From assembly GCF_001278075.1 (NCBI RefSeq), contig NZ_CP011340.1:2108001-2172000 (forward strand): 64,000 nt of DNA, given 5' to 3'. Under the pieces are notes generated by a model. The model had not been told where the DNA came from. It saw only the letters and a list, made by a program, of their open reading frames with translations, and ran no database searches. A program made the translations under genes and the position numbers. Numbering within the stretch: position 1 is the first letter of the stretch; each line of letters starts with the position of its first letter. This DNA is from Streptomyces pristinaespiralis (GTDB taxonomy: Bacteria; Actinomycetota; Actinomycetes; Streptomycetales; Streptomycetaceae). Positions 16,902 through 58,948 of this stretch are shown here, piece by piece.

Positions 16902-20937
<4,036 letters not shown>

Positions 20938-39301: not shown

Positions 39302-39356
39302 GCCCCCATCCTGGCCGTGCGGGCCGCCGGACACACGCCGTACGCGGATCTTCGGC

Positions 39357-39434: not shown

Positions 39435-41960
39435 TCAGGACGCCACGGCGAGGACCACGATGAGGACCACCAGCACCGCGCCGAACCCGCCGAGGGCGAG
39501 GACGAAGCCCCGCCCGTTCCCCGACGTCACGCCGGACGAGCGGTGCCCGCCGTGGTCGCTCCCGGACCGCCCCGGTTCGCCGGACGGGTAGGTGGTGCGG
39601 GTCTGCGGCTGGGCGGCGCCGCCCGGAGACCCGGGGTCGCGGCGCAGGCGCCGGCCGGGCTCGCGCACGTGGCGCTCCGGCTCGGGGCGGCGGACCGGTT
39701 CGGGCGTGCGGCGGGGCTGGTCGCCGGGGCGGTCGGCGTGGTCCGGCGTGCGGCGGGGCCGGTCGGTCGGCCACTCGGGGCGGTCGGTCGGCCACTCGGG
39801 GCGGTCGGTCGGCCACTCGGAGCGGTCGGCGTGGTCCGGTGGGCGGCCGGCCCGGTCGCCGGGCCACTCGGGGCGGTCGGCCCGATCCGGTGTGCGGCCG
39901 GCCCGGTCGCCGGGCCGCTCGGAGCGGTCGGCCCGGTCGCCCGGCCGCTCCCGGTACTCCGGAGGACCGGGCGGTTGCTCCGGGAGGCGGGGCAGCGGCT
40001 CTGGGCGCTCGGCCGGCCGGGCGGGGGGCTCCGGGGACTTTGGCGTTTCGCGGGCGGGCGGCAGCGGCAGCGGGTACGTCATCCAGCGGCGTACCAGCGC
40101 CTGCCACACGGGCAGTGTGATCCCCGGGTCCGCAGGGCCGGTGAGGATCTGCTCGGCCGCCCCGCGCGCGATGGGGTCGGTCCCGCCGCACAGTTCGGGC
40201 AGCAGTCTCTCCAGACGGCTCCCCACGTCCGGTTCGGCGGCGAAGGGCCGCACGGCCCATCGGTACAGCGCTGCCGCGTTCGCCGCGCGGACCGGCTTGT
40301 CCGGGCCGCCCCGGGCGGCCGAGCCACCGGGAGCGAGGTAGAGGCGTCGGCCGAGGACCGCGTCGCACAGGCGCTTGCGCTCACCTGCGGTCCAGTCGGG
40401 CCAGCCCTCCGCGATCCGGCGCACGACCAGGGTCAGCACCGTGTACGAGGGGTCGCCCTCCAGCACCGTCAGCAGGTCGCCGTTGCCCGACTGCCGGATC
40501 GTGTCGGCGAGTTCTCGCTCGTCACGGCAGTCGGCCAGTCGCGCGGGCAGTGAGCCGGTCTCCCTCGCGGAGCGGCGGCCGAGGACCGGCCGCCGACGCC
40601 GCTCACCCTCCGGCTCCGGCCAGGTGGGGCGTACGAAGGGAAGCCGCCCGGGCGGCCCGGGGGCCGGTGTCACCGGCGGCCGCGTCTCCTGAACGGGAGG
40701 CGTGACGAACGGCGACCGGTCCGGCTCGTCGAACGGCAGGGCACCGCCGGGGCCGCCCGCACGGCGGGACCCGTCGGGAACGGACCGCTCCGAGACGGGC
40801 TCCGGCACGCCCCGCTCGTCCGTGCGGTACGCGGCGGGCGTGGACGGCTCCGCGCCGTACTCGGCAGATCCGGGCGGCCCGGCGCGGTACGGCGTGGTCG
40901 GCCCGTCCGCGCCGTACGCAGCAGAGGCGGGTGGCCCGCCCGCGCGGAACGACGCGGGCGTGGACGGCTCGTCCGCGTAGTACGCATCGGCCGCGGACGG
41001 CTCCTGACGGTACGGGCGGGGCTCGGACCGGCCGCGTCCGGCGCGGCGCTCGAGCGCGGCCAGCGCGTCCTCCGAGGCCGCGAGCAGCGCGCGGCTGTCC
41101 CTCACGGCCGCGCCGGGGGGCACAGCCATCGACAGCGCGTCGGCGAGCTCGAACTCGTGCGAGTCGCCGCGCTCGACCGCGAGCAGATAGGCGCGTACCA
41201 GGCGCTCCGCCACCTCCTGCGGCCGGCCCGCAGGCGCCTGGAGCGGGTCCGTGCGCACCCGCGGCCCGTCCTGGTCGGGCGAACTGGACCAGCGGCTCAC
41301 GAACATGAACGTGATCCGGCGGCTCTCCGCGGTGTCGTGGGTCGCGAACGTCCACGGGTGCGGAAGGACCCTGCCGAAGATCCCGTACAGGGCCCACAGC
41401 AGCAGGCACGGTCCGTCGTCGCCCGCGCGGTTGAGCACGGTGTGCAGCGCGGCCGGGTCGCGCAGCATCTCCGCCGCGACCACGGTCAGTTCCGCCTCCG
41501 TCCGGCGGAGCCCGCCGGCCAGTCGCCTGCCGCCCTCGAGGGCCGACCGTTCGAGGGCGCCGAGCGGCACCGGGTCCAGCGCGCCGCGGACCTCGCCGAG
41601 CGCGATCCCGCTGCCCTCCCAGTCCCAGCCGTGCAGACCGAGGCAGGTCTCGGGGCCGAGGCTCCGCTCGGGTCCGTACAGGGCGTGGCACAGGGTGTCC
41701 TGGCGTCCCCCGAGACCGCGCCCGGACGTCCTGTGCACCAGCAGCGCCGTTGCCGAGTCCTCGCTCACCAGACGTACGAGGGCGGGCGCCGTGTCGGGCC
41801 CCGCCGACCTCAGCAGGTGGGTGACGGGCCGGAACAGCCGTACGACGTCGCCGCGTTCGCCGGACCAGGCGACCGGGCCGAAGCCGGTGTTGCCCATCGG
41901 GTTGGCGGCGTCCCAGCGGAAGACGATCTGGTCCACGGTCCCGGTGTGACGTGACGTCAT
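39435..41960 (-). CDS. GAP1-N2-like (GTPase-associated) protein with C-terminal membrane anchor
   Basis: An 841-residue protein. The N-terminal ~320 residues ([41 protein letters not shown]) match what I know as the GTPase-associated protein 1 type 2 N-domain plus its middle domain. A Pro/Gly/Ala-rich linker (~370-540) follows, and then a helical region of ~200 residues ([20 protein letters not shown] onward). Next is a long charged Pro/Arg/Asp repeat tract encoded partly by 21-base repeats. One transmembrane helix ends the protein ([20 protein letters not shown]). Its ATG overlaps the stop of the pseudokinase-GTPase gene (ATGA). It is the last gene of the ten-gene locus. No catalytic motif seen; adaptor or effector at the membrane is inferred. 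Confidence 0.8.
39760..39822 (-). repeat. 21-base tandem repeats inside the GAP1-like gene
   Basis: Three end-to-end copies of CGGTCGGTCGGCCACTCGGG plus one base, in frame and encoding repeated PEWPTDR heptads. Neighbouring degenerate copies extend the Pro/Arg/Asp tract on both sides. Confidence 0.85.
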
Positions 41961-44089
41961 ACCCCTGTCTCCCTCAACTCGGCTCCGGGCAGGAGCCCGC
42001 ACATCGCGAACACGGACAGCAGCGGGGCGAGGACCCGGCGCGGCCGCACGCCGTGCGGGAAGGTCTCGCCCCTCTCCTGGCCTCCGGTAGCCGCCACGAA
42101 GTGCAGGGTGCAGCGGGCGCAGTCGTCGAACGGCTTCAGCCATGCCTGGCTGCCGTGGTGCCGGACGAAGGCGTGGACGTCGCGGCTCTCCGCGCGCAGG
42201 GTGCGCTCGTCCAGGGCCGCCGGCAGGCCGCGGGACAGCCAGCGGTCCACCGACGGGTCGAAGCGGACCAGGTCGCTCTTGTTCAGTGCCACGGCCGCGG
42301 GGGCGCTGATGTACGGGCCGGTGCGCGGGATCCGGCCGAGCACGGTGGCGAACGCCTCGTCGCCGAGGTCACGCTGGACCAGCCCGGTGCGCTCACGCAC
42401 CGGGTCCAGCTGGGGCAGCCGCAGCGCCCGCAGCGGGTCGAGCACGAAGATGAACGCGCCCACGCCCATGAGGAACCGGGTCACGTCGCTGTTCTGCGCC
42501 AGGTCCTCGCCGGCCAGGTCGAAGAAGACCACGGGCCGGGTCACCCCGTGCCCGGTGACCAGCAGACCGTCGGCGAACTCGGCGAAGCGCACCTGCCCCG
42601 TGCGCCGCAGCACCTCCCCGCGGTGCAGCGGGTGGACCGTCTCCGCGAGGTACTCGCGGTGCTCCTCCGGATTGAGCGGCAGGCACTTGAGCCCGTACGG
42701 CTCGAGACCGCCCTGTTCGATCTCGCCCATCATGGCGGCCAGCAGATGGGTCTTGCCGGCGGCCGAACTGCCGACCATGGCGACGGTGAGCGGCTCACCG
42801 CTGGTGAGGTAGGGGACGGGCAGCCGGTGCGGCTGGCTCTCGTCCGCGTGCGGGCACATCTGGAAGGCCTGACGCAGGGCGTCCTGACGGTGCATCGGAC
42901 GGTACTCCGCGCTGAGGTCCAGTTTCCTGGGCTCCTTCTTGCTGTCGAGCGTGAACAGCTGCGTCTCGTCGTAGTGCACCGGCAGCAGGCAGTGCGGGCA
43001 CAACGGGGGTCTGCTCGGCAGGGGCGCGTCCACGGGGCCGGCCTGCCGGGGCTCGGCCGCCGGCCGGGGGGCGGGCGGCCGGCCCGCCCCCAGCAGCCGC
43101 CGCAGCGAGCGGCGGGGCGGGGGGCCGACCACTTCCACGTACACCTCCTCCGGCTCGGCCTGGGCCGCGAGTCCGAGCCGGTCGCGCTTCTCGGCGAGCC
43201 GGGCGTCGAACTCGGCGCGGGCGCGACCGAGCGGGTCCGGGGCGAAGGAGACCGCGGCCAGCGGATCGCCGACGTTCAGCAGGCGCATCAGCTCGGCCGG
43301 CGCCGCCCGCGTCTCCGCCCTGGGGGCGAACGCACCGGCCTCGCTGAGCGCGGCGAGCCTGCGGAAGTCGTCCAGGTCCTCGGGAGGCGCGGTCGCGTCG
43401 CCGGGCCGCCCGGACAGCAGGAAGTACATGAGCCGGGCCACCGACCACAGGTCGTCGCGCGGGTCGGCGGTGCCGGAGCCGTCGCGCTGCTCCGGCGCCG
43501 CCCACGGCGCCGCACCGAACGCCTCGCGGGGCTCGTCGACCCGCTGGGTGCGGTACAGCTCGCCCAGCCGCACATGGGTGCCGTCCCAGCGGACGGTGTA
43601 GGGGTTGATGTCCCGGTGCACCAGCTGGACGTCCTCCAGCAGGCGCACGGCCAGGGCCAGTTGGCTGAGCACCTTGTGCTGCTCCGCCATCGTCAGCGCC
43701 CCCTGCCGCTCGGCGACGGGACGCCCCGCATGCGCCTTGTAGAGGACGAAGGGCTCGGGAGCGTCGAGGTGGAAGCCGACGAGACGGGTGAACAGCTCGC
43801 TGTAGGGCTCTGCCCCGTACTGCCGCTCCACCGCGACCGCCGCGCTGACCTCGCGTTCGAGCGCGCCGTAGGCGTCGGCACCGCCGTGGGCGGAGCGCGG
43901 CAGCCGGTACTGGATCACCCGCCAGCCCTTGCTGAGGGTCACCTGCCGGGCGAGCAGGGGCGCCCGCTCCGGCATGCGGACGTCGTCGGAGAAGCGGGCG
44001 GAGAAACGGACGGGGTCCTGGCGGTGGGTGTAGAACTCCAGCTCCTCCACGTCCTCCGCCGGTGTCCCCGTGCTGTGCGGCACGGTCAT
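41957..44089 (-). CDS. Pseudokinase-zinc ribbon-GTPase fusion (double-GTPase-like)
   Basis: A 710-residue fusion. Residues ~30-280 have a protein-kinase fold: HRDINPYTVRW at 158-168, WAAPEQR at 196-202 and RDDLWSVARLMYFLLSG at 211-227. The HRDxKPxN Lys and Asn are replaced by Asn and Thr, the DFG site reads LGE, and no VAxK Lys is seen, so it is probably a pseudokinase. Cys364, Cys367 and Cys412 suggest a zinc site. Residues ~430-700 are a TRAFAC-like GTPase: Walker A GSSAAGKT (440-447), G3 DLAGED (524-529) and NKSD (603-606). It overlaps both neighbours by four bases. A signalling GTPase with a regulatory pseudokinase is inferred. Confidence 0.85.
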   Translation of the reverse strand: MTVPHSTGTPAEDVEELEFYTHRQDPVRFSARFSDDVRMPERAPLLARQVTLSKGWRVIQYRLPRSAHGGADAYGALEREVSAAVAVERQYGAEPYSELFTRLVGFHLDAPEPFVLYKAHAGRPVAERQGALTMAEQHKVLSQLALAVRLLEDVQLVHRDINPYTVRWDGTHVRLGELYRTQRVDEPREAFGAAPWAAPEQRDGSGTADPRDDLWSVARLMYFLLSGRPGDATAPPEDLDDFRRLAALSEAGAFAPRAETRAAPAELMRLLNVGDPLAAVSFAPDPLGRARAEFDARLAEKRDRLGLAAQAEPEEVYVEVVGPPPRRSLRRLLGAGRPPAPRPAAEPRQAGPVDAPLPSRPPLCPHCLLPVHYDETQLFTLDSKKEPRKLDLSAEYRPMHRQDALRQAFQMCPHADESQPHRLPVPYLTSGEPLTVAMVGSSAAGKTHLLAAMMGEIEQGGLEPYGLKCLPLNPEEHREYLAETVHPLHRGEVLRRTGQVRFAEFADGLLVTGHGVTRPVVFFDLAGEDLAQNSDVTRFLMGVGAFIFVLDPLRALRLPQLDPVRERTGLVQRDLGDEAFATVLGRIPRTGPYISAPAAVALNKSDLVRFDPSVDRWLSRGLPAALDERTLRAESRDVHAFVRHHGSQAWLKPFDDCARCTLHFVAATGGQERGETFPHGVRPRRVLAPLLSVFAMCGLLPGAELRETGV

Positions 44090-46851
44090 CGCGTTCCGCC
44101 CTCCTCTCCCCTGACCGACCTGACCGTGTCCGGGCGCATCGGCACCAGCGTGAGCACCCCGGCGTGCCTGCCGCCCGCCGTCCACACGACGTCCTCCGCC
44201 GCGGCCGGCCAGGCGTCCTGGCCGGTCTCCGGCTCCGCGCCGCGCCGCAGGGCCTCCGGCGCGAAGCGGAACCGCCGCGCCGCGTGCGGGTCCTTGGAGA
44301 GCAGTCGCCGGTGCTCGGCCCCGCACAGCGGGACGACGTGCTCCGTGCCGCCGTCGGCCAGGAGCCGGCGCACCCGGTCGGACGAGACACCGAGCAGACC
44401 GGCGATGCCGGGCCGGTTCCCGGGATCCGGGGCGTACGGGGGCGGCGCGGCGGCCGCGTCCTTGATCAGCCGCCGGTGCTCCTCGTCGAGGAGCTCGTTC
44501 ATCAGGGGACGCAGCGGCACCCTGGTGGCGGTCGCCGGTTCACGTTCGACGGCAGCCCAGCGGGAGGCGAGGATCAGCGCGGCGCCGTGGGACAGGTCGC
44601 CGACCAGGGTGTCGACCAGTTCCGGGCCACCGTCACCGGTCTCCCGCTCGAGCCAGGGCGGGCCGTCGCCGTCGGCCCCGGACGGCCACAGGCTGCGCAG
44701 CGCGTGCGGGTGCTCCTCGGCGGCGGGTGATCGCTCTCCGGCGGCGTGCGGTACGGAGCGGCCGCCGGCGGCCGGGTCCGGGGCGGATGCCGCAGCGGCG
44801 TCCGGGGCGTGGCCGTCGGCGAAGCCCGAGCGGAAGTCGGCGCCGACGCCGGGCGCGGCGGGGCCGCCGAAACCTGACGTGAAATCCGACCCGAAGCCCG
44901 AGCCGAACCCGGGCACGGCGGCGTCCCCGGACCCCGGGTCGAAGTCCGTGCCGAGGTCCCGCCCCGTCCTCGTCCCCGTGCCGAAGCCCCCCGCCCCGAA
45001 GGGGTCATGGGCCCCACCGTCCGCGAAGGCCGTACCGTACGAGGCGGCGTCCGTGACCGTTGGTTCCGGCCGGTCGTCGTCGGCGCCGTCACCCCAGCTG
45101 TCCCAGTCGAAGCCGCCCGCCGGCCCGGCGTGCGGGCCGCCCGGTTCGTCCAAGGGCAGCGCCCGGTCCGCGGACGGGCCGGCGCCGAGCCTCTCCTCCA
45201 CGGTGTCTGCCATCGAACCGACCAGCACGGCGACGGCGCGTGCCGCGTCGGAGCAGTGGTAGCGGGCATCGGCGAGCAGCCAGTCGTGCACGACGGTGTC
45301 GGCGAGCAGTTCGTCGATCCCTTCCACCGCTCGCGCGGCGAAGGCCCAGTCCGTCTGCCCCCACCAGTCGTCGACCGCCGCCGTCCAGGCGTGTATCGCC
45401 GGCAGCACCAGTGCGGTCAGCGCGACGGCCAGGGCGACCGCGCCCGCCCAGACCGGCAGGGACAGCGCCGTGCCGGCGACCGCGCCGGTCACCCCGCCGA
45501 CGGCGCCCGCGGCGAGGCGGGTCAGGACGCGGGTGTCGCCGCCCCCGTCGAGACGGCCGTCACGCGAACGACCGGGCCTGCGGCGCAGCATCAGCGCGGC
45601 GAGACCCGCGGCCGCCGCCGCGCAGAGCGGGCCGGTGAACCACCCGGCGCCCGGCCACAGTCCGGCGACGCAGCAGATCAGCAGGGTCAGGCCCGCGTCG
45701 GCCGCCCACGGGAGGCGCATCAGGAACGGTGGCGGCAGCGGAAGTTCCGCGACCCGCTCCGGCGGACAGGTCTCGTCGAGCCGGCGCAGTCTCGCCGTGC
45801 TTCCCGCCGGCGCCGACCGGCCGGAGAGGGCGTTGAGCGTCGCCGCGACGGACCGCAGGGGCAGCCGCTGCCCGAGGAGACGCTCCGTGTGGTCGCGCAG
45901 CGCCGGTCCCACGCTCGCGCGGGTCACCTCCGGCACCTCCGTCAGTTCGATGCCCCGCTCGAGCAGGCGGCTGCGCTGCTCCGGCCGGATCCGGTCGCCG
46001 CCGCCGTCGGCGAGCGCACCCGCGACCTCCGCCCGGTACGCGGCCAGCGCGTCCGCGAGACTTTCGAACCGTGCGGGGAGGTCGGCCTCCTTGCCGGCCC
46101 TGCCGAACAGGCCCGCCACGCCCCGGACCGCCTCGTAGGCCTCCCTGGTGTCGTGCAGGGCGTCCAGGCACTGCTCGTGCCGGGTGTCGGTCCTGCCGCC
46201 GGGTGTCAGCCACGGCCGGTCGGCGAGGCTGCGCGGTACCGACCGGCCGAGCAGGAGCGAGAGTTCCGGGGTGAGACCGTCCTGCCGGGCGCCGCCGGAC
46301 GTGGTGCCCTGCTCGGGCGGGGTGACGGATACGGGCAGGTCCTGGCCGGTCAGATGCTCCAGCGCCTGCCGCCAGGCCCGTGACCGCGCCTCGTCCGTCA
46401 GGTCGTGCTCCAGTACGTGCACGGCGGGCACGGCGACCCCGTGAGGCACATCCGCCAGTTGGCCGAGCACGCAGTCGAACACGGCCGGTTCCACGAGGAG
46501 TTCCAGCAGCGGCCGCAGCGAGGCGTCGAACCTGTCGGTCCCCGGCGCGGCGCCGACGAGCGTGTCGGGCAGCCACAGGACGCCGGCCTCCGGCGGGCCG
46601 AGAGGCAGCGGCCGGTGGAGCTGCCGCTGCCCGGGAGCGCCGGTCGCGAGGCAGAGCAGCCGGGCCGGTCCGTAGGAGTAGAGCTGTTCGTAGAGGAGCT
46701 GGTGGTCCACGAGGTCGGCAGCGCCGTCGATGACGAGGAACCGCCGCGTGCGGTCGTGTTCCGTCTCCTTCAGCGCTCCCGTCACCGGCGCCCCGTGCCG
46801 CAGGTCCACGACGACGGCATGGGCCGGGCGGTTCTGTTCCATGTTCACCAT
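44086..46851 (-). CDS. Membrane protein of unknown family in the tubulin/GTPase locus
   Basis: A 921-residue protein. The N-terminal ~250 residues (HAVVVDLRHGAPVTG, RRFLVIDGAADLVDHQLLYE) look like a nucleotide-independent Rossmann-like or scaffold domain, with no P-loop. About four membrane helices lie at ~375-490 (LTLLICCVAGLWPGAG, AGAVALAVALTALVLPAIHA). A Gly/Asp/Phe-rich disordered region (GFGSGFGSDFTSGFGG type) covers ~560-690, and a helical C-terminus of ~200 residues ends the chain. ATG 46851, with AGGACGG upstream, overlaps the tubulin stop by 7 bases; its own stop overlaps the next start. I do not recognise the family. Position suggests the membrane platform of the system. Confidence 0.75.
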   Translation of the reverse strand: MVNMEQNRPAHAVVVDLRHGAPVTGALKETEHDRTRRFLVIDGAADLVDHQLLYEQLYSYGPARLLCLATGAPGQRQLHRPLPLGPPEAGVLWLPDTLVGAAPGTDRFDASLRPLLELLVEPAVFDCVLGQLADVPHGVAVPAVHVLEHDLTDEARSRAWRQALEHLTGQDLPVSVTPPEQGTTSGGARQDGLTPELSLLLGRSVPRSLADRPWLTPGGRTDTRHEQCLDALHDTREAYEAVRGVAGLFGRAGKEADLPARFESLADALAAYRAEVAGALADGGGDRIRPEQRSRLLERGIELTEVPEVTRASVGPALRDHTERLLGQRLPLRSVAATLNALSGRSAPAGSTARLRRLDETCPPERVAELPLPPPFLMRLPWAADAGLTLLICCVAGLWPGAGWFTGPLCAAAAAGLAALMLRRRPGRSRDGRLDGGGDTRVLTRLAAGAVGGVTGAVAGTALSLPVWAGAVALAVALTALVLPAIHAWTAAVDDWWGQTDWAFAARAVEGIDELLADTVVHDWLLADARYHCSDAARAVAVLVGSMADTVEERLGAGPSADRALPLDEPGGPHAGPAGGFDWDSWGDGADDDRPEPTVTDAASYGTAFADGGAHDPFGAGGFGTGTRTGRDLGTDFDPGSGDAAVPGFGSGFGSDFTSGFGGPAAPGVGADFRSGFADGHAPDAAAASAPDPAAGGRSVPHAAGERSPAAEEHPHALRSLWPSGADGDGPPWLERETGDGGPELVDTLVGDLSHGAALILASRWAAVEREPATATRVPLRPLMNELLDEEHRRLIKDAAAAPPPYAPDPGNRPGIAGLLGVSSDRVRRLLADGGTEHVVPLCGAEHRRLLSKDPHAARRFRFAPEALRRGAEPETGQDAWPAAAEDVVWTAGGRHAGVLTLVPMRPDTVRSVRGEEGGTR

Positions 46852-50327: not shown

Positions 50328-50381
50328 GTCGTCTCCCCTTGCGCCGCCGTCGTGGACGGGCGCTCGTGGCCGAGAGGTGGG

Positions 50382-52784
50382 TCAGAAGTTGGGGTCGGGA
50401 GGGGTGGTTCCGCGTCGCGGCGGGGCGGCGGAGGCGTCGCCCCTGCTCCGTCCGCCGCGCGGGCCGGTGCGGTCGGTGGAGTTCTCGGGCCGCGGGCCGC
50501 GCGGACCCGGCACACGCCGGCGGCCGAAGGGGCCGCCGCCCTCCCTCCGGCCCTGGCCGCCCCTCCGGCCCTCACCGTCACGCCCGGCCCTGCCCGTTCC
50601 GGAGGCGGTACGGGCGTCACCGACGACGAGTTCGAAGCCGTCGGCCAGGCCGGCCGGCTGGCCCTGCCCGATCGCCCGCTCCGGTCCGCCGGGCGGCTTC
50701 AGCAGCAGTTGTCCGGCGGTCGTGCGCCGCAGGCGGTACGCCTGGGAGCCTCCGCCGCGCCGCAGCGCGGGAGCACTGCCGCCGGAGCGGCCGACGCCGA
50801 AGAGGAACTCCCCGCCCGTGCTCTGGCCGGCCCTGATGGTCAGCGTGTCGGGCCGCTGCCCCTCCGCCCGCAGTTCGAGCCGAACACCCGAGAGGTCCCG
50901 CCGTCTCGCGCCTGCCCGCTGCCGCACGGCGACCACGGCGGCCAGCGCGCACAGCAGGAGCGCCGCGCCGGTGAAGGCCCACCACCACCTGTCCCACAGG
51001 GTGGGTTCGGCGGTGACGCGTACCCCGAGGAAGACGTTGTCCACGACCCGTCCCCCGTCGCCGAGGTCGGTGACCGTGATCCGTCCGGACAGTTCGCCGA
51101 GCGGGACGTCCGGGCCGAGCGTGACGGTGAACGGGGTGGAGCTGCCGCCGGGCGCGGCGTTCACCGTGGCCGGGCTGATGCGCAGCGCCGATCCGGGCGG
51201 CTGGTCGGCGAGGGAGAGCCGCAGGGTGTGCGGTCCCGAGTCGTCGTTGGTGACGTCCAGGGTGCCGCTGACCGTCTGCCCGGGGTGGACGTCGCCGCCG
51301 CGGTCGACGCTCAGTCCGGCGGTGAGCACCTCGGTGCCCTGCGAGATACGGGCGTGCAATGGCCGCCGGTCGCTGGTGATGCCCGGTGCGGTCATCTCGG
51401 TGGTGAGCCGCAGCTCCCCGGAGGCGGTGGCGGGGACGGTGAACCGTCCGGCGTAGCGGGCGTCCTTGGCCCGCTCGTCGGGCTTCCTGCCGCCGTCGGA
51501 CAGCGGTACGACGACGGGGTCGAAGCCTTCACCGGTCATCCGGGCCGAGACCCTGACGCCCTCGAGCTGCTCGGGATCGGTGATCACCACGCCGCGCCGG
51601 GTCTGCATTCGGACCTCGACGACGGCCTCCTCCCCCGGGCGGGGCGAGGCGGGGCTGAGCGTGACCGCGGATCGGAGCCTGCCCTGCCAGATGGCGCGCA
51701 CGGCGACCTCGCGGTCGCGGTGGCCCTCCGGCGCCTCGATATGGACCCGCCACTTGCCCGGCAGCGGGTTCTTCACCCGCAGCGCCTCCACCGGCCCGTC
51801 CTGTCCGCTGGTCTCGAAGGCGGAACCGTCGAACTCGCCCTGTGTCGGCACCCGTCGGCCCTTGGGGTCGTAGTAGGTGACGGTGACCTTGGGGTCGTGC
51901 TTGCCGACGGTGAGGGAACCGTCGGTGGCGATGGGCGGGATGGTGACGGAGAGGTCGGCGGGAGGTTTGCCGACCGTGCCGTGTGCCACACGTGCGCAGC
52001 GGGCCGCGGCGAAGGTCTCCTGGAGCGCCTTGTCGATCTGCGCCGAGCTGTCGACCACGCGCATCTTCGGTGCGGCGCCGGGCAGATCGGCGCAGCCGTT
52101 GCTGAATCCGCCCTCGGCCATCCTCGTCAGCGCGGCCCGGTCGATCCTGGCGCCGAAGCCGAGCGGCCAGATCTGCACGAACTCCCGCCGCGCCCTGGCC
52201 AGTTCCTCCGTCAGGCGCTTCGCGCCGTTGGCCTGGCGGCTCGCCTCGTCGGTGCCGTACTCGGGGCTGTCGGAGACGTCGAGGCGGCCGTCGGTGAGCA
52301 GGAAGACGACCTTGGGGACGTCCTTGTCGCCGTTCTCGGTCAGCCGGTCGACGGCCTGCCGCACGGCCGCGGGGAAGTCGGTGCCCGGTCCGGTCTTCCT
52401 GTCGTCGCGGTGGGCCAGTTGCTGCACGCAGTCGCTCAGCCGTTGCCGTCCCGCGGTGTCGGCCGTGGTCAGCGCGCACACCTCGCTGACCGGCGACTGG
52501 CCCGGTTTCTCCGAGCTGCCGAAGCCGATGACGGCGGCGCGGGAGCGGGCGGAGATCTCGCCCTGGGTGATCAGCGAGGCGGCTTCCACCTCACGTGCCA
52601 GGTCCTTCTCGGACAGGCTCTCCGACTGGTCCACGACGACCGCGAAGTCGATCGGTTCCGGCCCGTCGGACGCCGGCGCGGCCGCCCTGCCCAGGGGGCC
52701 GGCGGCCTGTCCCGGCGCCGCGGCCGGAAGTATCAGGAGTGCGCAGATCAGCACCGGCACACCCGTTTTGCGGAACATGTCCAT
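50382..52784 (-). CDS. Secreted/membrane-anchored von Willebrand A protein
   Basis: An 800-residue protein with a Sec signal (KTGVPVLICALLILPAAAPG). The vWA domain (~45-280) carries MIDAS residues DQSES (52-56) and a later FLLTDGRLDVSD. Several Ig-like beta domains follow (~290-600). One membrane helix (WWWAFTGAALLLCALAAVVA, ~630) comes next, then a cytoplasmic FHA-like or beta domain of ~90 residues and an Arg/Gly-rich tail. The ATG is 6 bases after the stop of the PycTM-like gene, and the tubulin gene follows 54 bases on. It would present a metal-dependent adhesion domain outside while contacting the tubulin/GTPase components inside; that coupling is inferred. Confidence 0.88.
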   Translation of the reverse strand: MDMFRKTGVPVLICALLILPAAAPGQAAGPLGRAAAPASDGPEPIDFAVVVDQSESLSEKDLAREVEAASLITQGEISARSRAAVIGFGSSEKPGQSPVSEVCALTTADTAGRQRLSDCVQQLAHRDDRKTGPGTDFPAAVRQAVDRLTENGDKDVPKVVFLLTDGRLDVSDSPEYGTDEASRQANGAKRLTEELARARREFVQIWPLGFGARIDRAALTRMAEGGFSNGCADLPGAAPKMRVVDSSAQIDKALQETFAAARCARVAHGTVGKPPADLSVTIPPIATDGSLTVGKHDPKVTVTYYDPKGRRVPTQGEFDGSAFETSGQDGPVEALRVKNPLPGKWRVHIEAPEGHRDREVAVRAIWQGRLRSAVTLSPASPRPGEEAVVEVRMQTRRGVVITDPEQLEGVRVSARMTGEGFDPVVVPLSDGGRKPDERAKDARYAGRFTVPATASGELRLTTEMTAPGITSDRRPLHARISQGTEVLTAGLSVDRGGDVHPGQTVSGTLDVTNDDSGPHTLRLSLADQPPGSALRISPATVNAAPGGSSTPFTVTLGPDVPLGELSGRITVTDLGDGGRVVDNVFLGVRVTAEPTLWDRWWWAFTGAALLLCALAAVVAVRQRAGARRRDLSGVRLELRAEGQRPDTLTIRAGQSTGGEFLFGVGRSGGSAPALRRGGGSQAYRLRRTTAGQLLLKPPGGPERAIGQGQPAGLADGFELVVGDARTASGTGRAGRDGEGRRGGQGRREGGGPFGRRRVPGPRGPRPENSTDRTGPRGGRSRGDASAAPPRRGTTPPDPNF

Positions 52785-52790
52785 CGTCTC

Positions 52791-53339
52791 TCACCACAGC
52801 TCGCCGAAGAGGACCAGCAGCGCGCCGAGGGTCAGCGTGCAGACCCCCATGCGCAACCACCGGTATTTGGCGGCCAGGACCGCCCCGTGCACCCGTGCCT
52901 GGCCGACCAGCCAGCGCACGACGTCCTCGCCCGACTCCGAGAGCCGGACGAGCAGTTCATCGGTCGGCGTGCCGACCGCGAGATCGCGAAGGAAGGTGGT
53001 GTGCGCGCCGGTCCGCGTGCGCGGCAGTATCACGCCGACGAGCATCAGCACCCCCGCCGCGTAGAGCAGCAGCCCGGCGGTCACGGTGGCTGCCGCCGCC
53101 CGGGACGCCGGCAGCGGGAGCTCGTTGCGCGAGAAGGCGACGGCCAGTGCGGCGACCGCTCCGGAGAGCAGGATCGCCGCCTTGGCGTCGGCCCGGCCGA
53201 TGTCCTCGCGTACGGAGCCCAGCAGCCGCTCTGCGACGAACCGCACATCGGCACCGGGGTCGGCGCCGCCGGAACCGGCGCCGGGGCCGGGGCCCGGAGG
53301 CACACCGGCGCCCGGGCCCGGCGGTGCGCCGCCGTTCAC
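52791..53339 (-). CDS. Small PycTM-like membrane protein
   Basis: A 182-residue protein that begins with a Pro/Gly-rich stretch and then RFVAERLLGSVREDIGRADA. The RADAKAAILLSGAVAALAVA segment (49-68) is close to the start of the Pycsar TM effector (DUF5706) family. Two helices occur at ~54-70 and ~82-105, and a third hydrophobic stretch lies at the C-terminus (~164-180). In Pycsar anti-phage systems, such proteins respond to cyclic pyrimidine nucleotides and damage the membrane. GTG 53339 overlaps the SPFH-like stop (GTGA). A cyclase homologue is encoded three genes upstream. Effector function is inferred. Confidence 0.75.
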   Translation of the reverse strand: MNGGAPPGPGAGVPPGPGPGAGSGGADPGADVRFVAERLLGSVREDIGRADAKAAILLSGAVAALAVAFSRNELPLPASRAAAATVTAGLLLYAAGVLMLVGVILPRTRTGAHTTFLRDLAVGTPTDELLVRLSESGEDVVRWLVGQARVHGAVLAAKYRWLRMGVCTLTLGALLVLFGELW

Positions 53340-54544
53340 TCGTCCCCCCAGTCGTCGAAGTCGGCGCTCGGGCGGGCGCCGCCCGATCCGGCCGCCGGCT
53401 GCCCGTCGCGGTCCCGTTCCGCGGAGGACTGCACCCGGGTGGGCTCGTAGACGTGCCCGTCCTCGGGGGCCGGTCCGGCATCCTCCGGCTCCTCGTCCCA
53501 GAACGGCCGCCTCGGCTCCGGGGTCTCCTCCCTGCGCGAGGACAGCGCGGGCCGGCCCCCGTCGGGGGACGTGAGCACCCGGTCGGTGACCCTGCCGGTC
53601 ACCCTGCTGCTGTTGTCCCTCAGGTACCGGAGCACCTCGTACATCTGCTCGCCCACGTCGTGCCGTTCCAGCATTCCCGCGTCGAGCAGCCGGTTGAAGA
53701 GATGCAGGTAGTCGGCCTGGCCCTCCCGTTTCTCCTGCCGGATCGCCTGGCGGATCTCCCACACCTTGTCGGGGTTGCTCGCCATCAGGTGGGTGATCTC
53801 GGCCTCCTCGCCGCGCCGCAATACCTCTTCCAGCTGGGCGGCGCGCTCGGCGACGCGCTCGCGCTCGTACCGGTCCTTCCGACGGTCCGCCTCTGCCTGC
53901 GCCCGGTCCTTCTCCATCGCGAAGGCGACGTCGTCCCGCTCCTGGACCCGGTCCCTGACCTGGTCGCTGAGGTCGATGAAGACGTGCACCCGGGTCCGCA
54001 GGCCGAGATCGGCGCCGAGGTCCATCCGGCCGGCCCGCAGTTCGGCCTGGACGGCCTCCTCCGCGCGCTGCGCCTCCGTCAGCCGGAACCGGCGGGACAC
54101 CTGGCGCAGCCCGTACAGCAGGTCACCGTGGAGCATCTCGCGTACGTCCCAGACGGCCTTCTCGACCACCAGGCGGGGGTCGTCCACCTCCCACTGCACC
54201 TCGGCGCGCGTCTTGAACGACTGGGCGTCGCCGGCGGCGGGCAGGGCTAGGTCGAAGGCGGTGACATGGCGTCCGAGGATCACCTCGAAGACGGCGCGGG
54301 GTCCTCCGAACCAGGGCTTGTCGTGGTCCTCCCTGCGGCTCGGCCACAGCACGCTGTGACCGCCGTTGGGGTAGAGGTACACGGCGGCCACCTGGCCGCT
54401 GCGCCGGGTGTACGGCAGGACGCACTCCCGCAGCAGCGGCCCCTTGCGCGCCTCGGCGGCACCGGCCTGCTCGTCGGCGCCTGCTTGCTCGTCGGGCCGG
54501 AACGGCTGCTGCGCGGGCGGTTCTCCGGCGCCTGACGGGGTCAT
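53336..54544 (-). CDS. SPFH/band 7-like protein with coiled coil
   Basis: A 402-residue soluble protein. Residues ~85-215 resemble an SPFH/prohibitin-type domain (VTAFDLALPAAGDAQSFKTR, AEVQWEVDDPRLVVEKAVWD, LRTRVHVFIDLSDQVRDRV). They are followed by a highly charged helix likely to be a coiled coil (AFAMEKDRAQAEADRRKDRY onward, ~220-270) and an acidic disordered tail. No signal or membrane helix is seen, unlike most band 7 proteins. It overlaps the genes on both sides by four bases. It may scaffold the NTPase or the membrane components; the family call is by eye. Confidence 0.7.
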   Translation of the reverse strand: MTPSGAGEPPAQQPFRPDEQAGADEQAGAAEARKGPLLRECVLPYTRRSGQVAAVYLYPNGGHSVLWPSRREDHDKPWFGGPRAVFEVILGRHVTAFDLALPAAGDAQSFKTRAEVQWEVDDPRLVVEKAVWDVREMLHGDLLYGLRQVSRRFRLTEAQRAEEAVQAELRAGRMDLGADLGLRTRVHVFIDLSDQVRDRVQERDDVAFAMEKDRAQAEADRRKDRYERERVAERAAQLEEVLRRGEEAEITHLMASNPDKVWEIRQAIRQEKREGQADYLHLFNRLLDAGMLERHDVGEQMYEVLRYLRDNSSRVTGRVTDRVLTSPDGGRPALSSRREETPEPRRPFWDEEPEDAGPAPEDGHVYEPTRVQSSAERDRDGQPAAGSGGARPSADFDDWGDE

Positions 54545-56859
54545 CGCATCGCTCCTTCCGCCGCCGCTTCCCACATCAGGCGGGCGGCGTCCTTGTCCAA
54601 GGGGTCGTCCTCGTCCCGGACCAGCCGGGCCAGCAGGTGCCGCACCCGGTCGCGGTCCCTGCGTTCCACGGTGATCAGCGGGAGGAAGCCGCAGACCACG
54701 TCGAGCTGGGCGGGGTCGTCCGCGCACTGCCGCAGGACCCGCCCGAGGGCTTCGAGCGCCACCTCGCCGGAGCGGGCGGTGCCGAGGGTGAGGGTCACCA
54801 GGTCGGCGAGCTTGCCGGCCAGGGGTTCCCGGGTGGCGAGCAGGGCGACGAGCAGCGGCCGGCGGGCGTGCTCCTCCAGCTCCTCGCTCTCGTCGAGCCC
54901 CCAGAGGTAGGTGGTGCGTGTGGTCAGCGCGCCCAGCACGCTCAGCAGCACCAGGTCGGTGAGTTCCCGCTGTCCGCCGCGCAGCCAGGCGCCGAGGCGG
55001 GCGACGACCGTCCCCGGTTCCGCGCCGGCCAGCAGCCGGGTGACGCTGAACGCCGCGTTGGACAGCGTCGTCACGTCGCCGGTGCGGACGGCCTTCGCCA
55101 GCGCGTCGAGGGAGGCGCGGACGGAACCAGCCGCCATGCCGTATCCGTGGGTCAGCAGCGCCGTCGTCACCAGAGCCTCGTCCCCGGACGCGGCCCATTC
55201 CTTCAGCAGCGCGCCGACCGCGGGCCGCACCGACGCGTCCCTGGACGCCTCCGCGAGCGCGGTCGCGGCCGACATCTGCTGGACGGGGCTGTCCACAGCG
55301 GCCATCGGGCCGATCAGCTCGCCGGCCCCGTGGACCCAGTCCCAGGAGCACAGCACACCGGCGGCGACGGAGGCCCGCACCCAGACCTGGGGCCGCGGGT
55401 CGTCGCACAGGGTGCGCAGCCAGCGCACCACCGGGCCGCGTGCGTTGTGGTAGCCGTTCCACACCTCGCGCAGCACGGCGGTGGCGAGGGCCTCGCCCTG
55501 GAAGCGGATGGCGCGCACCGGGATCTGCGCGTCGCCGAGGTCGAACTCCGCGTCCTCGACGACCGCCCGGGCCAGCGCCGGGCGGTCGTCGGCGTGGGTG
55601 CCGAACAGCCGCCGCCCGACGGGCTGTTCGGGGTCCAGGGTGACGGACATCTCCCAGGCGAGCTGCTCGGCGGCCTCGGCCGCCAGTCCGTAGGGCGAGC
55701 CGTTGAACACGGCCACGGCGATACGGAAGGCCGCGGCGCCCAGGGCGGGCCGCGCCTCGGGGAGGGTCCCTGGGCGGTCCGCGCCGGCGAACCACGCGCG
55801 GGCCTGCGCCCGCACGAAGGTGGTGCAGCCGTCGAGGAGTTCGTCGTCGCCCAGTTCACCGCGCCAGTGGCGGGCGAGCAGTTCCGCGAGACCGGCGGCC
55901 TCCTTGGGACGCAGTTCGTCGAGTCCGAGCGCGGCCTTCAGGTCCTCGCGGCTTGCCAGTTCGCGGCAGCTGTCGAGGGCCTCCGGCGGTTCGCCGCGCA
56001 GCAGGATGCGCAGATGTCGGTGGAGGACGTCCTCGGTCCCCGGCGGGCGCAGGTGCATCCCGTAACGGCCGCGCAGCAGCCGGTCGGCCAGGTCCCCGCT
56101 CTCCACGAGGACGACGCCGAACGCCTTGGCGGTCAGCAGCTGCCTGCTGAAGCGGTCCAGGTGCAGTTCCGTGAGCCGGCCGGGGTGACGGCCCTCGTCC
56201 CGGCCGTCGCCGCGGGTGCTCCGGCCGCCCTCCCCGTGCGGCTCGTCGGACGGCAGTTCCAGGAGATGCCCGTACTCCTCCTTGAGCATGTCGCCGGCGA
56301 TCCGGTGCACGGCCTCGCTGGGGTCCAGCCGGGTGACCTGGTTGTCGGTGAGCTCGGAGAGCAGGGCGAGGGCCGTGGCGGTGCGGCCGCTCCCCCGTTC
56401 CCCGCACAGCACCACCAGCCCGCACTCGCGCAGCCGGGTCCGCATCCGGCCGTATCCGGGCGTCTCGCAGTAGACCCCGGCGAGCCGGCGCAGCTCCTCG
56501 GCGGGGACGGGCCCGTCGAGCATGGCCCGGCCGGGGCCGGCGCCGAACTGGTTGATGAAGTAGTTGCCGTGGAAGTACTGGCCGTCGTCGCCGAAGGTGA
56601 CGACCCGCTCCGCCTGCCGCGGTGCGAAGGTCCGGCGTGCCGCGTGGGCGGTGCCGGATCCGCCGGTGCCGCCGGCGGATCCCATCGGGCCGCGGCCCGC
56701 CGTCGCGAAGGGGTTGGGCGGTTCCGGAGCCGCGTCAGCGGCGTCCTGCGCGGCCGCCTCCGGGTCCGGCTCCGCGGGTTTCTGGACGGGCGCGGGGGCC
56801 GGCTTCTGCTCGTCCGCCGGGGCGGCGGGCGGCGGGGCCTCTTCGTGGTCGCTGCTCAT
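54541..56859 (-). CDS. P-loop NTPase (STAND/AAA-like) with disordered N-terminus
   Basis: A 772-residue protein. Residues 1-80 are Pro/Ala-rich and disordered, followed by a short motif GDDGQYFHGNYFINQFGAG (90-108). The NTPase core starts near 145: Walker A is GERGSGRT (153-160) with Arg where Lys is usual, and a hydrophobic strand FGVVLVESGD could be Walker B or the sensor. Residues ~400-770 are alpha-helical repeats of HEAT or TPR-like character. The ATGA overlap with the cyclase gene gives tight coupling. It looks like a regulatory switch ATPase; the Arg in place of Lys raises doubt about hydrolysis. Confidence 0.78.
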   Translation of the reverse strand: MSSDHEEAPPPAAPADEQKPAPAPVQKPAEPDPEAAAQDAADAAPEPPNPFATAGRGPMGSAGGTGGSGTAHAARRTFAPRQAERVVTFGDDGQYFHGNYFINQFGAGPGRAMLDGPVPAEELRRLAGVYCETPGYGRMRTRLRECGLVVLCGERGSGRTATALALLSELTDNQVTRLDPSEAVHRIAGDMLKEEYGHLLELPSDEPHGEGGRSTRGDGRDEGRHPGRLTELHLDRFSRQLLTAKAFGVVLVESGDLADRLLRGRYGMHLRPPGTEDVLHRHLRILLRGEPPEALDSCRELASREDLKAALGLDELRPKEAAGLAELLARHWRGELGDDELLDGCTTFVRAQARAWFAGADRPGTLPEARPALGAAAFRIAVAVFNGSPYGLAAEAAEQLAWEMSVTLDPEQPVGRRLFGTHADDRPALARAVVEDAEFDLGDAQIPVRAIRFQGEALATAVLREVWNGYHNARGPVVRWLRTLCDDPRPQVWVRASVAAGVLCSWDWVHGAGELIGPMAAVDSPVQQMSAATALAEASRDASVRPAVGALLKEWAASGDEALVTTALLTHGYGMAAGSVRASLDALAKAVRTGDVTTLSNAAFSVTRLLAGAEPGTVVARLGAWLRGGQRELTDLVLLSVLGALTTRTTYLWGLDESEELEEHARRPLLVALLATREPLAGKLADLVTLTLGTARSGEVALEALGRVLRQCADDPAQLDVVCGFLPLITVERRDRDRVRHLLARLVRDEDDPLDKDAARLMWEAAAEGAMR

Positions 56860-57749
56860 GCGGCACCGTCCCCGTCGGCGGCGGCCGGCCTTCGGCTCTT
56901 GCGGATGCCGGTCACCTCACCGTGGAACACGTTGTTCTCGAACGACGCCACGTCGCCCTGGGCGTTGATGTGTGTGACGGTCGTGGCGGGGCTTCCCGCG
57001 GTGCCCTTCGGCGCTGTGGCGCTTTCCGTGCTCGTGGTTCCGGGCTCCCCAGGCGGTGGGCCGTCCCCCCGTACCGGCCCACCGCCCGTCCCGGCCCCCG
57101 CTTCCCCCGCGCGCCCCGTACTCCCGTGCGCGCCGCCCGGCCCTGACACGGGGCGGTCCTCGGGCAGCGGGGGCGCGGGTAACCGGGGAATGTGGAACCA
57201 GGCGGTCTCGTCGGTCTCCTTGAGCCTGACCCGCGCGCTGCGGTACGTCTCCGGCTCGACGTAACGGCCGCCTTCCGCCACCACGTTGGCGTAGAGCCAG
57301 TCGGAGACGACCAGCAGCAGATCGCTGCCGGGGGCGAGCTCCATCGTCCGCCTGGCGACCGCGCTGTCGCAGAGCCGTGCCGCGACGTCCACGGCACGCC
57401 CCACCAGTCCCCTGCCGTCGTCGAGCACCGGGCCGGCGTTCATCCCGATCCTCAGCCGCAGGCGGTCGGCGCTGCCCGCGTTGTGCTCGCGCAGGCTCTG
57501 GAACAGCGAGTCGAGCCAGGTGCCGACCATCAGCGTCGGGGGTACGCCGGGGTCGAGCGCGGCGAGGATCCCGTCACCGCGGTCCTCCTGGTGGACACGG
57601 TCCACCTCGACGCCCACGGCGGCGTACGCCTCGGCGAAGGCCCCGTACATGGCGGCCCGCATACGCCTCTTCGCATCGAGGCCCATGCGCCCCGAGCCGC
57701 AGGCGTCCCCGAAGACCACCAGTCTGTTCACCGCTGCTGCACTGCTCAC
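56856..57749 (-). CDS. Class III nucleotide cyclase homologue
   Basis: A 297-residue protein whose first ~210 residues form a cyclase homology domain. The first metal-binding Asp is in VVFGDACGSGRM, the second in EDRGDGILAALDP, and the dimer-interface pattern is LRIGMNAGPVLDDGRGLVGR then AVDVAARL. Both metal Asp residues appear kept. The loop lengths differ from adenylate cyclases, so the product base cannot be told. A Pro/Gly-rich linker leads to a C-terminal motif GDVASFENNVFHGEVTG (265-281), similar to a motif in the adjacent NTPase. GTG start with AGGGGG upstream. It could make a cyclic nucleotide read by the PycTM-like or Crp-like proteins, or be a degenerate regulator. Confidence 0.8.
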   Translation of the reverse strand: MSSAAAVNRLVVFGDACGSGRMGLDAKRRMRAAMYGAFAEAYAAVGVEVDRVHQEDRGDGILAALDPGVPPTLMVGTWLDSLFQSLREHNAGSADRLRLRIGMNAGPVLDDGRGLVGRAVDVAARLCDSAVARRTMELAPGSDLLLVVSDWLYANVVAEGGRYVEPETYRSARVRLKETDETAWFHIPRLPAPPLPEDRPVSGPGGAHGSTGRAGEAGAGTGGGPVRGDGPPPGEPGTTSTESATAPKGTAGSPATTVTHINAQGDVASFENNVFHGEVTGIRKSRRPAAADGDGAA

Positions 57750-57818
57750 TCGGACCCCCTGGGTGCTGTCGTCTCGGGAACAAGACTCGGTGCGTCGTGC
57801 GACGGGCGATGTAGCCGT

Positions 57819-58547
57819 TTACACAAGTGGCGGGCTTTTCTTCGCCGGTCCGCGCTGCGGCGGTTGCTCGCGGCCCTCGGCGAGGAGCCGCAGCAGGTCC
57901 ATGTCGGTGACGATCAGCCGCCGGTGGGCGGTGCGGACCACCCCTTGGTCACGCAGCAGCCGCAGCACCTTGGCGACCGCTTCCCTGGTGGCCCCTATCG
58001 CGGCCGCCAGATCGTGCTGCGGCAGGGGCAGGTCGATGACGGTGCCGTCGCCGTCGGTGCGGCCGACCCGTCCGCCGAGTTCGACCAGGCGGGCGGCGAG
58101 CCGCTGGAGCACGGAGCCGGAGGCCAGCGAGCGGCGCTCCACGTCGGAGCTGCGCAGCCGGGCGCTGAGCTGACGCATGATCAGTGCCGTGGCCTGTGGT
58201 CTGGCGGCGAGGAAGCTGCGGAAACGCTCGCCGGAGACGGCCACGGTACGCACCTGGCCCAGCGCGGTCACCGTGGCGCTGCGTGGGCCGCGGTCCACGG
58301 CCGCGAGGTCGCCCACGACCTCGCCCGCCCCGCGCAGGGCGAGGATGAGACGGCCGCCGCGGTCGGTGCCCACGGAGACCACGGCCCAGCCGGAGAGCAC
58401 CAGGAGCACGAAGGTGCTGGTGTCGCGCTCCTCGATCATGACGTCACCGGAGGCGTAGACACGTGGCGCTCCGAGAGCGGTGAGCGTGGCACGGTCCTGT
58501 GGAGTGAGGGCGTCGAGAAACGAACGGCCCCCTCCGAACAGACTCAT
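57819..58547 (-). CDS. Crp/Fnr-family regulator
   Basis: A 242-residue regulator. The cyclic-nucleotide-binding domain spans ~10-125, with a phosphate-binding cassette region GEVVGDLAAVDRGPRSATV that keeps Glu and Arg. The Crp-type helix-turn-helix is LPLPQHDLAAAIGATREAVAKVLRLL (split across ~178-203). ATG 58547 is chosen because the upstream frame is low-complexity. It stops 69 bases before the cyclase start on the same strand, so it heads the locus or is a separate upstream transcript. Regulation of the locus by a cyclic nucleotide is inferred. Confidence 0.92.
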   Translation of the reverse strand: MSLFGGGRSFLDALTPQDRATLTALGAPRVYASGDVMIEERDTSTFVLLVLSGWAVVSVGTDRGGRLILALRGAGEVVGDLAAVDRGPRSATVTALGQVRTVAVSGERFRSFLAARPQATALIMRQLSARLRSSDVERRSLASGSVLQRLAARLVELGGRVGRTDGDGTVIDLPLPQHDLAAAIGATREAVAKVLRLLRDQGVVRTAHRRLIVTDMDLLRLLAEGREQPPQRGPAKKSPPLV

Positions 58548-58948
58548 CGACTCGCCCCCCGCAGCGGATGTGCTGGCCCTTCGGGGGACCACGTCCTTCG
58601 CCGGCGTTTCATCCCGCGCAGTGGACCCAAGGGGCACTCGGTGCCACAGAGTTGCCCTACCGTCACACTGCGTCGGGGCATTGACGCTAGGGGCCGGTCA
58701 ATGGTCGGTCAATATGACCTCGATGGAGCTCGGGGGCACGAGGGGGCGCACTCGTCAACGCACAGGCGCATGATCCGCGGCCGTACCTCGCGAACGAGCC
58801 CCCCTGAAGACCAACGGCCTCGGGCGCGCGCCGGGCGCCCGAGGCCGTCGTGCAGTCGTCGGCCGTCGGCCGTCGCACGGTCGTCACCGTGGATCGACCG
58901 TGCCCGACTGCCTGCTGCGTGTACCTGCCTGTCTGTCCGGTCAGCGGC
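58548..58948. other. 401-base intergenic region between the Crp-like and pnkp genes
   Basis: Contains the crp-like promoter region (minus strand) and the pnkp terminator at 58814-58848. GGTCAATGGTCGGTCAATATGACC (58693-58716 in part) holds two GGTCAAT copies that could be operator half-sites. Short GC-rich inverted repeats follow at 58853-58910. No supported gene. Confidence 0.5.
58814..58848 (-). terminator. Terminator downstream of pnkp
   Basis: ACGGCCTCGGGCGC / GCGCCCGAGGCCGT, a perfect stem with a 7-base loop, about 100 bases beyond the pnkp stop. Confidence 0.75.

Follow-up and report, generated by a model that had tools for sequence, protein, structure and literature searches.

The 64,000-nucleotide stretch of Streptomyces pristinaespiralis DNA analysed here (contig NZ_CP011340.1, positions 2,108,001 to 2,172,000; the window) carries an operon of ten tightly packed ORFs (open reading frames), all on the minus strand, that spans positions 39435-58547 (Table 1). 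The packing described in the original prediction, made by a model from the letters of the sequence, was confirmed in full by coordinates and codons. Four-base overlaps are found at 41957, 44086, 53336, 54541 and 56856, that at 53336 being a GTGA that places the start of the PycTM gene at 53339. A seven-base overlap lies at 46845-46851, and the intergenic gaps elsewhere measure 6, 54 and 69 bases. The first gene can be read as a GTG ORF from 58637, which encloses a likelier ATG at 58547; the latter is most likely the start of the Crp gene, because the homologues share an MSLF start.

The protein families proposed for most of the ten genes stood. The Crp, vWA, Tubulin_2 and PycTM assignments scored above the Pfam cut-offs; the nSTAND3, kinase and DO-GTPase matches lay below them, and no Pfam match at E≤0.05 was obtained for four proteins (cyclase, SPFH, membrane and GAP1-like). 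The cyclase was recovered by profile search against the PDB, where its matches (5d0g 'Cyclase', 4e-7; Ma1120, 3.1e-6) are class III cyclases, and the SPFH protein by a predicted fold like those of prohibitin, HflK/C, stomatin and flotillin. The DO-GTPase2 model matched 18 of 20 aligned sequences (E≤0.1; best 2.8e-8, window protein 0.0027). The GAP1 label was not confirmed by Pfam: the GAP1-N2/M/C models matched 0 of 20 aligned sequences, and hhalign of the GAP1-like protein against GAP1 gave a probability of 17-38% with co-linear motifs, and 0.3% against a two-sequence profile. PADLOC returned single-protein matches for PycTM, CNBD (cyclic-nucleotide-binding domain) and a kinase-like protein, and an Rfam scan of 38500-60000 gave no match.

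Table 1. Genes, protein motifs and upstream elements of the operon, in window coordinates (TM, transmembrane segment; HTH, helix-turn-helix).
Feature	Position	Strand	Basis
Crp/Fnr-type regulator (cyclic-nucleotide-binding domain + HTH)	57819..58547	-	PF00027 5.9e-15, PF13545 1e-16
Class III nucleotide cyclase homologue, disordered tail	56856..57749	-	Profile matches 5d0g, Ma1120
Cyclase C-terminal motif, residues 256-283, amyloid-signalling-like	56901..56984	-	
STAND-like P-loop protein, nSTAND3-like	54541..56859	-	nSTAND3 5.2e-5, under cut-off
STAND N-terminal partner motif, residues 84-105	56545..56610	-	
Walker A, Lys to Arg (GERGSGRT)	56380..56403	-	Arg in 41/41 aligned operon homologues
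SPFH-fold protein without TM-like segment	53336..54544	-	Predicted fold
PycTM-family protein, two TM	52791..53339	-	PF18967 5e-12, over cut-off; PADLOC PycTM 1.7e-11
vWA protein: signal-like N-terminus, TM near residue 600	50382..52784	-	PF13519 5.4e-8
Tubulin_2 GTPase, long C-terminal region	46845..50327	-	PF13809 9.2e-80
Membrane protein of unknown family, TM-like segment 462-494	44086..46851	-	Conserved in loci; no Pfam match
Pseudokinase fused to zinc-ribbon DO-GTPase	41957..44089	-	DO-GTPase2, alignment columns
GAP1-like protein, C-terminal TM	39435..41960	-	
Promoter-like TTGAC-N18-TAGCGT, upstream of operon	58684..58712	-	
Imperfect TGACRC-N-GYGTCA palindrome, candidate operator	58662..58674	-	

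A single scan with the tubulin yielded 57 loci, all but four of them in Streptomyces (loci and genomes are cited by L and G numbers). Deep flanks on both sides were available for 42 of the 57, and 32 of these 42 carry all ten genes in order, as counted with profiles of the ten proteins built from the same loci. The four-base overlaps are often the same across the conserved loci. The original prediction had staked itself on the genes being conserved together elsewhere, and they are. In the tubulin tree the combined arrangement recurs in three Streptomyces clades, with the tubulin down to ~50% identity. L042, L058 and L059 were left out of profile building; L058, whose matches were fragmented (probably by frameshifts), was dropped from the alignments together with sequences that exceeded or fell short of the set lengths, and L086 matched none of the ten profiles. 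Smaller or differently arranged sets were seen in the other ten deep-flank loci. L050 and L061 hold only the vWA, tubulin, membrane protein and GTPase genes, and L055 holds these plus the GAP1-like gene.

The operon is composed of two separable modules, A and B, each of which is also found alone. Module A comprises Crp, the class III cyclase, the STAND-like P-loop protein, SPFH and PycTM, and occurs free of tubulin at other Streptomyces loci. We searched 61 Streptomyces genomes with a cyclase profile and at least 36 matched, a lower bound set by scoring 39 of 53-143 candidates per genome. A strong cyclase match (E 2e-77 or better) was present in 11 of the 12 tubulin-bearing genomes, the exception being G142. 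Among 36 fetched non-tubulin cyclase loci, Crp was found in 32 and STAND in 20, with SPFH also in 15, PycTM in 14 and all five genes in nine. One of the nine full sets (L116) has Crp and PycTM ~8 kb away on the other strand; L113 and L115 each hold the full set of five between unrelated-looking genes. The inclusion of a cyclase, a PycTM-like protein and a Crp had been singled out beforehand as the unusual part of the locus, an observation that holds: they belong to a five-gene cassette with an existence of its own.

Module B has a core of vWA, Tubulin_2, membrane protein, pseudokinase and DO-GTPase, which occurs without module A in other actinobacteria and in two Streptomyces loci, L089 and L120. 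Fourteen further non-Streptomyces tubulin loci carry genes for the vWA protein, the tubulin, the membrane protein and the GTPase up to the limits of their contigs; Crp, cyclase, SPFH and PycTM were not found within these stretches, of which at least four are contig ends, nor did the GAP1-like profile match in any of the 14. A STAND-like gene lies downstream in one of them (L085). The pseudokinase has an ORF of its own in the outgroups L050, L055 and L056, and in the last two it shows a terminal membrane-like segment. In Actinomadura (L056) the core genes are accompanied by a differently placed Crp and a cyclase-TIR fusion (17413-19315; TIR_2 7.5e-15), downstream of the tubulin core GTPase. Here a cyclase accompanies the tubulin core for a second time, at a different place in the gene order. 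The N-domain of the GAP1-like protein resembles the TagF and longin domains of GTPase-regulating complexes, and the part of its gene that codes for a Pro/Arg/Asp-rich linker contains 21-nt-spaced tandem repeats at 39683-39961.

Active-site columns were counted by alignment, which replaced unreliable regular-expression counts of Walker A and catalytic residues. The cyclase metal residues Asp15 and Asp59 are each kept in 41 of 42 sequences, as is Arg125; the phosphate-pocket Arg of Crp is kept in 38/38. In the DO-GTPase, P-loop Lys446, the Walker B Asp and NKxD are each present in 48/48 and Walker B Glu528 in 47/48, and the zinc ribbon has an invariant CxxC at 364-367. Since these active-site residues are kept, the cyclase, the GTPase and Crp look competent. 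The tubulin shows the glycine-rich T4-type motif in 57 and the N-terminal GGTG motif in 56 of 58 sequences, and the vWA protein has TM-like segments at 7-30 and 600-623. The kinase part is a pseudokinase, because the HRD Asp is retained in only 2 of 48 rows (four are gapped there). A distant relative of the STAND-like protein (L117) matches nSTAND3 (9e-6, below the cut-off) and HEAT_2 (3e-6), and from such relatives the C-terminal part of the STAND-like protein would be of HEAT type. Glu in place of the adenylate cyclase Lys marks guanylate cyclases. The operon cyclase has Glu55 at that column, where Ma1120 rows show both K and E, and the base-reading site of Crp is Asp165. A few loci suggested covariation of cyclase 55 with Crp 165; acid-acid covariation gave p=0.146 over 31 pairs, the Q-versus-other split over these pairs was post hoc, and cGMP, being unsupported, was dropped as the messenger.

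Two proteins of module A have a short motif in common, which lies in the disordered cyclase tail and in a stretch ahead of the STAND P-loop. A hidden Markov model (HMM) of 27 cyclase tails recovered 13 of 42 STAND N-termini at an independent E-value (i-E) <1, six of them at <0.01, whereas neither the eight other families nor shuffled sequences gave a match at i-E<1. Between divergent loci the two copies of the motif vary together: over 16 loci the matched-pair score was 516 against 371.7 ± 25.2 when permuted (p=5e-5), and over 30 loci the permutation z was 10.9 with the cyclase's own STAND first in 11, these permutation p-values overstating independence because related loci share ancestry. Descent of both genes from a common ancestor is not the explanation for the likeness, because cyclase and STAND are different protein families. 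The pair in L142 is near-identical (VNGGVFGGMNHGIGGGTFHGDIHLG vs VGGGVFGGVNHGIGGGTFHGDVHVG), and that in L138 agrees at 17/17 residues. At the free-standing module A loci (20 tested; L121 and L056 excluded), the STAND outscored every other six-frame ORF (29-172 ORFs per locus) in 15/20, with shuffle p<0.05 in 17/20. An unmasked partner search placed the STAND on top in 9 of 56 loci, and a search with the motif window in 11 of 50. The counts in the unmasked search are low because low-complexity tails swamped the scoring; the loci of both searches were mostly those of the tubulin operon, where the motif has drifted. In the motif-window search overlapping frames were excluded in several loci, so the STAND could not rank there. 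A well-matched ORF was also observed near cyclases with no recognizable STAND, in L124 (3879-4193), L128 (7720-8214), L122 (4250-4504) and L132 (7865-11314); these are possibly other types of partner.

Matched receptor and effector motifs in neighbouring genes are, according to two reports (PMC8086366, PMC12261475), the mark of bacterial amyloid signalling. The arrangement here is like that of the BASS amyloid pairs described there, with the motif at the N-terminus of an NLR and at the C-terminus of an effector encoded by the neighbouring gene. The likeness is one of sequence motifs, and the effector, a nucleotide cyclase, is different. Module A also resembles Pycsar, which pairs a PycC cyclase with PycTM or PycTIR (PMC11224242): a class III cyclase with the metal Asp pair and a PycTM-family effector stand in one operon, TIR appears as an alternative in Actinomadura, and the CNBD of Crp has the G-E/D...R-S pocket residues. 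In contrast to Pycsar, the operon cyclase falls outside the PADLOC PycC models, and a STAND hub, SPFH and Crp are added.

The operon sits between arcA (arginine deiminase; window 38072-39334) and pnkp (RNA repair; 58949-61666), both identified by reading their sequences and by the Pfam families ADI and PNKP_ligase. The two genes lie on one contig at most 25 kb apart in 54 of the 61 genomes; in the other seven, omitted from the table of intervals, one of the pair is absent or lies on a different contig. In five tubulin-positive genomes the interval measures 19.8-24.1 kb with the tubulin inside, and in three it was not measurable. In the 45 tubulin-negative genomes it is ≤3.5 kb in 39 (median 781 bp) and >5 kb in six. 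We fetched five of these six large intervals, G183 (9.8 kb gap) being the one not fetched. Two (G009 and G011) hold a VMAP-type system, that of G009 (L151) with VMAP-M0/VMAP-C/EAD2, AAA_5 and NB-ARC/TPR proteins by Pfam, that of G011 (L150) with NB-ARC/TPR in the single protein scanned. A third (G179; L154 4119-8151) is a decayed copy of the operon, in which Crp (3e-114), STAND (1e-228) and part of the GAP1-like gene (1e-31) are left. The intervals of G140 and G144 contain other genes. arcA was seen at 31 of the 57 tubulin loci. Across Streptomyces the interval behaves as a presence/absence site that can hold other cargo of conflict type, and it looks like a likely place for finding further such systems.

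The VMAP (MoxR-vWA) ternary systems of Kaur et al. 2020 are thus alternative cargo of the arcA-pnkp site. One of them holds a second tubulin. In the genome of the window, this VMAP system encodes a trypsin-VMAP-M7-VMAP-C protein, an AAA_5 protein and then a 1629-residue protein that ends in a tubulin copy (G000:C1:1492064-1493230; L003/L004). This copy is 70% identical to the operon tubulin over 1050 columns, with GTP-binding motifs visible in both. In the tree it groups as sister (SH-aLRT 100) to the operon tubulin and that of S. xantholiticus; its branch is long (0.43), of the kind against which the tree tool warns. The N-terminal part of the 1629-residue protein is presumably the VMAP vWA component, because of the gene order and a DxSxS-like stretch read in the sequence; Pfam gave no vWA match there. 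L150 and L151 match the AAA gene of this VMAP system (46-47% identity) and the N-terminal part of the tubulin fusion (31-33%). Besides the tubulin copy, no operon gene was seen in the VMAP systems, a point of difference between the two. According to Kaur et al. 2020 (PMC7159879), the tubulin systems of actinobacteria and VMAP systems exclude each other. Here they replace each other at arcA-pnkp, yet both are present in this genome, because its VMAP system sits elsewhere.

On this evidence, we lean toward reading the locus as a compound inducible conflict operon, of immune type, built from two independently existing modules. A triggered STAND-like hub would pass its state, through its short N-terminal matched motif, to the tail of the cyclase. 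The class III cyclase would then make a cyclic mononucleotide, which could be read by Crp to raise expression of the operon and could open or assemble the PycTM membrane effector. The SPFH protein may serve as a scaffold or ring. Module B would be a membrane-anchored, GTP-driven assembly of the tubulin, the DO-GTPase/pseudokinase, the GAP1-like protein and the extracytoplasmic vWA protein, which may sense or contain an intruder at the membrane. The least certain elements are the input of the STAND, activation as opposed to recruitment of the cyclase, the nucleotide made and the killing of cells by PycTM. It is the context of the operon that suggests an immune function. The original prediction had left the choice between anti-phage defence and a surface or developmental machine to inference; we infer that conflict or defence is the better supported of the two, because of the site shared with VMAP and the VMAP-captured tubulin. 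More tentatively, a general immune signalling route, for which no description was found in the papers searched, may exist in Streptomyces, in which an NLR-like hub templates a cyclase in prion-like fashion, the cyclic nucleotide fires PycTM or TIR with amplification by Crp, and the whole is wired into a tubulin/GTPase machine that competes with VMAP for one site.

Several observations weigh against the conflict-operon reading. The Walker A lysine of the STAND-like protein is an arginine throughout the operon homologues (Table 1), while the distant relatives L116 and L117 retain GK. The protein is thus unlikely to be a normal NTPase and a classical NTP switch is doubtful; we call it 'STAND-like' because an intact Walker A Lys is absent from the operon homologues. 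Both metal Asps are lost from the cyclases of L059 and L121; no PycTM was found at these loci, which retain the other operon genes seen. PycTM is missing from 6 of the 38 deep-flank Streptomyces loci (present in 32/38); L036, L046, L048 and L059 are deep-flank loci without it, and L007 and L053 lack Crp as well. The cyclase/STAND pair of the window itself is weak (shuffle p 0.199; rank 10/16 and 18/30). It has drifted, and the pairing in the operon is read from its relatives. PADLOC PycC scored the cyclase at only E 0.039 (11.5 bits) and had no match in the cyclases of L142, L117, L136 and the L056 fusion. In four tubulin-positive genomes the arcA-pnkp interval is 0.3-1.0 kb and the tubulin lies elsewhere. 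The fixed position points to largely vertical inheritance, unlike that of a fast-moving defence island; in its simple form, a mobile defence island is unsupported, the site being fixed.

A rather doubtful alternative is that the operon is merely another actinobacterial GAP1-N2/tubulin system (Kaur et al. 2020), its extra genes incidental. In that paper (PMC7159879), the tubulin theme comprises a single tubulin gene, a DO-GTPase, a membrane vWA protein and a GAP1-type partner, in actinobacteria and with a proposed conflict role. The operon has counterparts to these: Tubulin_2, a GTPase that is DO-GTPase2-like and has both a zinc ribbon and the Walker B Glu, a membrane vWA protein and, downstream of the GTPase, a GAP1-like protein of several domains with a C-terminal TM. 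It differs in that the GTPase is fused to a pseudokinase, in that the GAP1 domains go unrecognized by Pfam in the 20 sequences, and in adding the five-gene cyclase/STAND/SPFH/PycTM/Crp module, which is conserved and separable. The vWA protein, though vWA and TM are present, had no FNIII match in Pfam at E≤0.05. No FNIII-HRDC protein was matched among the ten window proteins, which is why we leave the operon unassigned to that system. The earlier view of the locus as an undescribed system thus has to be divided. Its tubulin, DO-GTPase and vWA half is close to the published theme. Kaur et al. 2020 was the only description of tubulin/DO-GTPase systems found in the open-licence literature, among the matches listed, and its main text lacks the words pycsar and pyctm (PMC7159879). 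The STAND-cyclase-SPFH-PycTM-Crp cassette was not described in any of the titles and abstract openings listed from the open-licence literature, a scope outside which subscription papers and most preprints fall. Module B resembles a published system, and for module A no description was found within that scope.

It is unlikely that the locus is instead a surface, envelope-stress or developmental machine, in which a tubulin/GTPase cytoskeleton, vWA and SPFH organise the membrane and the cyclase and Crp conduct ordinary stress signalling. SPFH, tubulin, an anchored vWA and membrane proteins are indeed present, the site by arcA or pnkp is fixed in many species, and the operon is spread over three clades. 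Yet its distribution is patchy, with the tubulin in 12 of 61 Streptomyces genomes; the arcA-pnkp site is empty or VMAP-filled in others or holds the decayed crp, STAND and gap fragment of L154; and the PycTM effector with its TIR alternative does not fit such a role. Chance adjoining of two unrelated operons without joint function is highly improbable: each module does occur alone, but the union is kept in three clades down to ~50% tubulin identity with close same-strand packing, and in Actinomadura a cyclase and Crp once more neighbour the core, though at a different place.

If the conflict-operon reading is true, the locus joins three bacterial immune logics that have been treated apart: NLR-type receptors with amyloid motifs, Pycsar-like cyclic-nucleotide effectors, and tubulin/GTPase conflict systems. 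The exact cognate motif pairs, the five-gene minimal cassette and the empty-site control in relatives make templating from receptor to cyclase directly testable.

The region upstream of the operon carries elements that may bear on its control. TTGAC-N16-19-TA[GC][CGT][GA]T was found in 22 of 38 upstream regions, that of the window included, against 0.04 per set in shuffles. A perfect TGACRC-N-GYGTCA palindrome occurs in only 12 of the 38, that of the window not among them. In nine relatives (L010, L011, L012, L017, L018, L019, L025, L028 and L037) the palindrome lies upstream of crp, 16 nt past the -10 box, and it is a candidate Crp operator; simple GTG-N-CAC patterns were uninformative in this respect. 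Directly upstream of the operon and on the same strand (58949-62793) lie genes for Pnkp and a Hen1-like methyltransferase, which we take, by sequence reading, to be an RNA repair pair.

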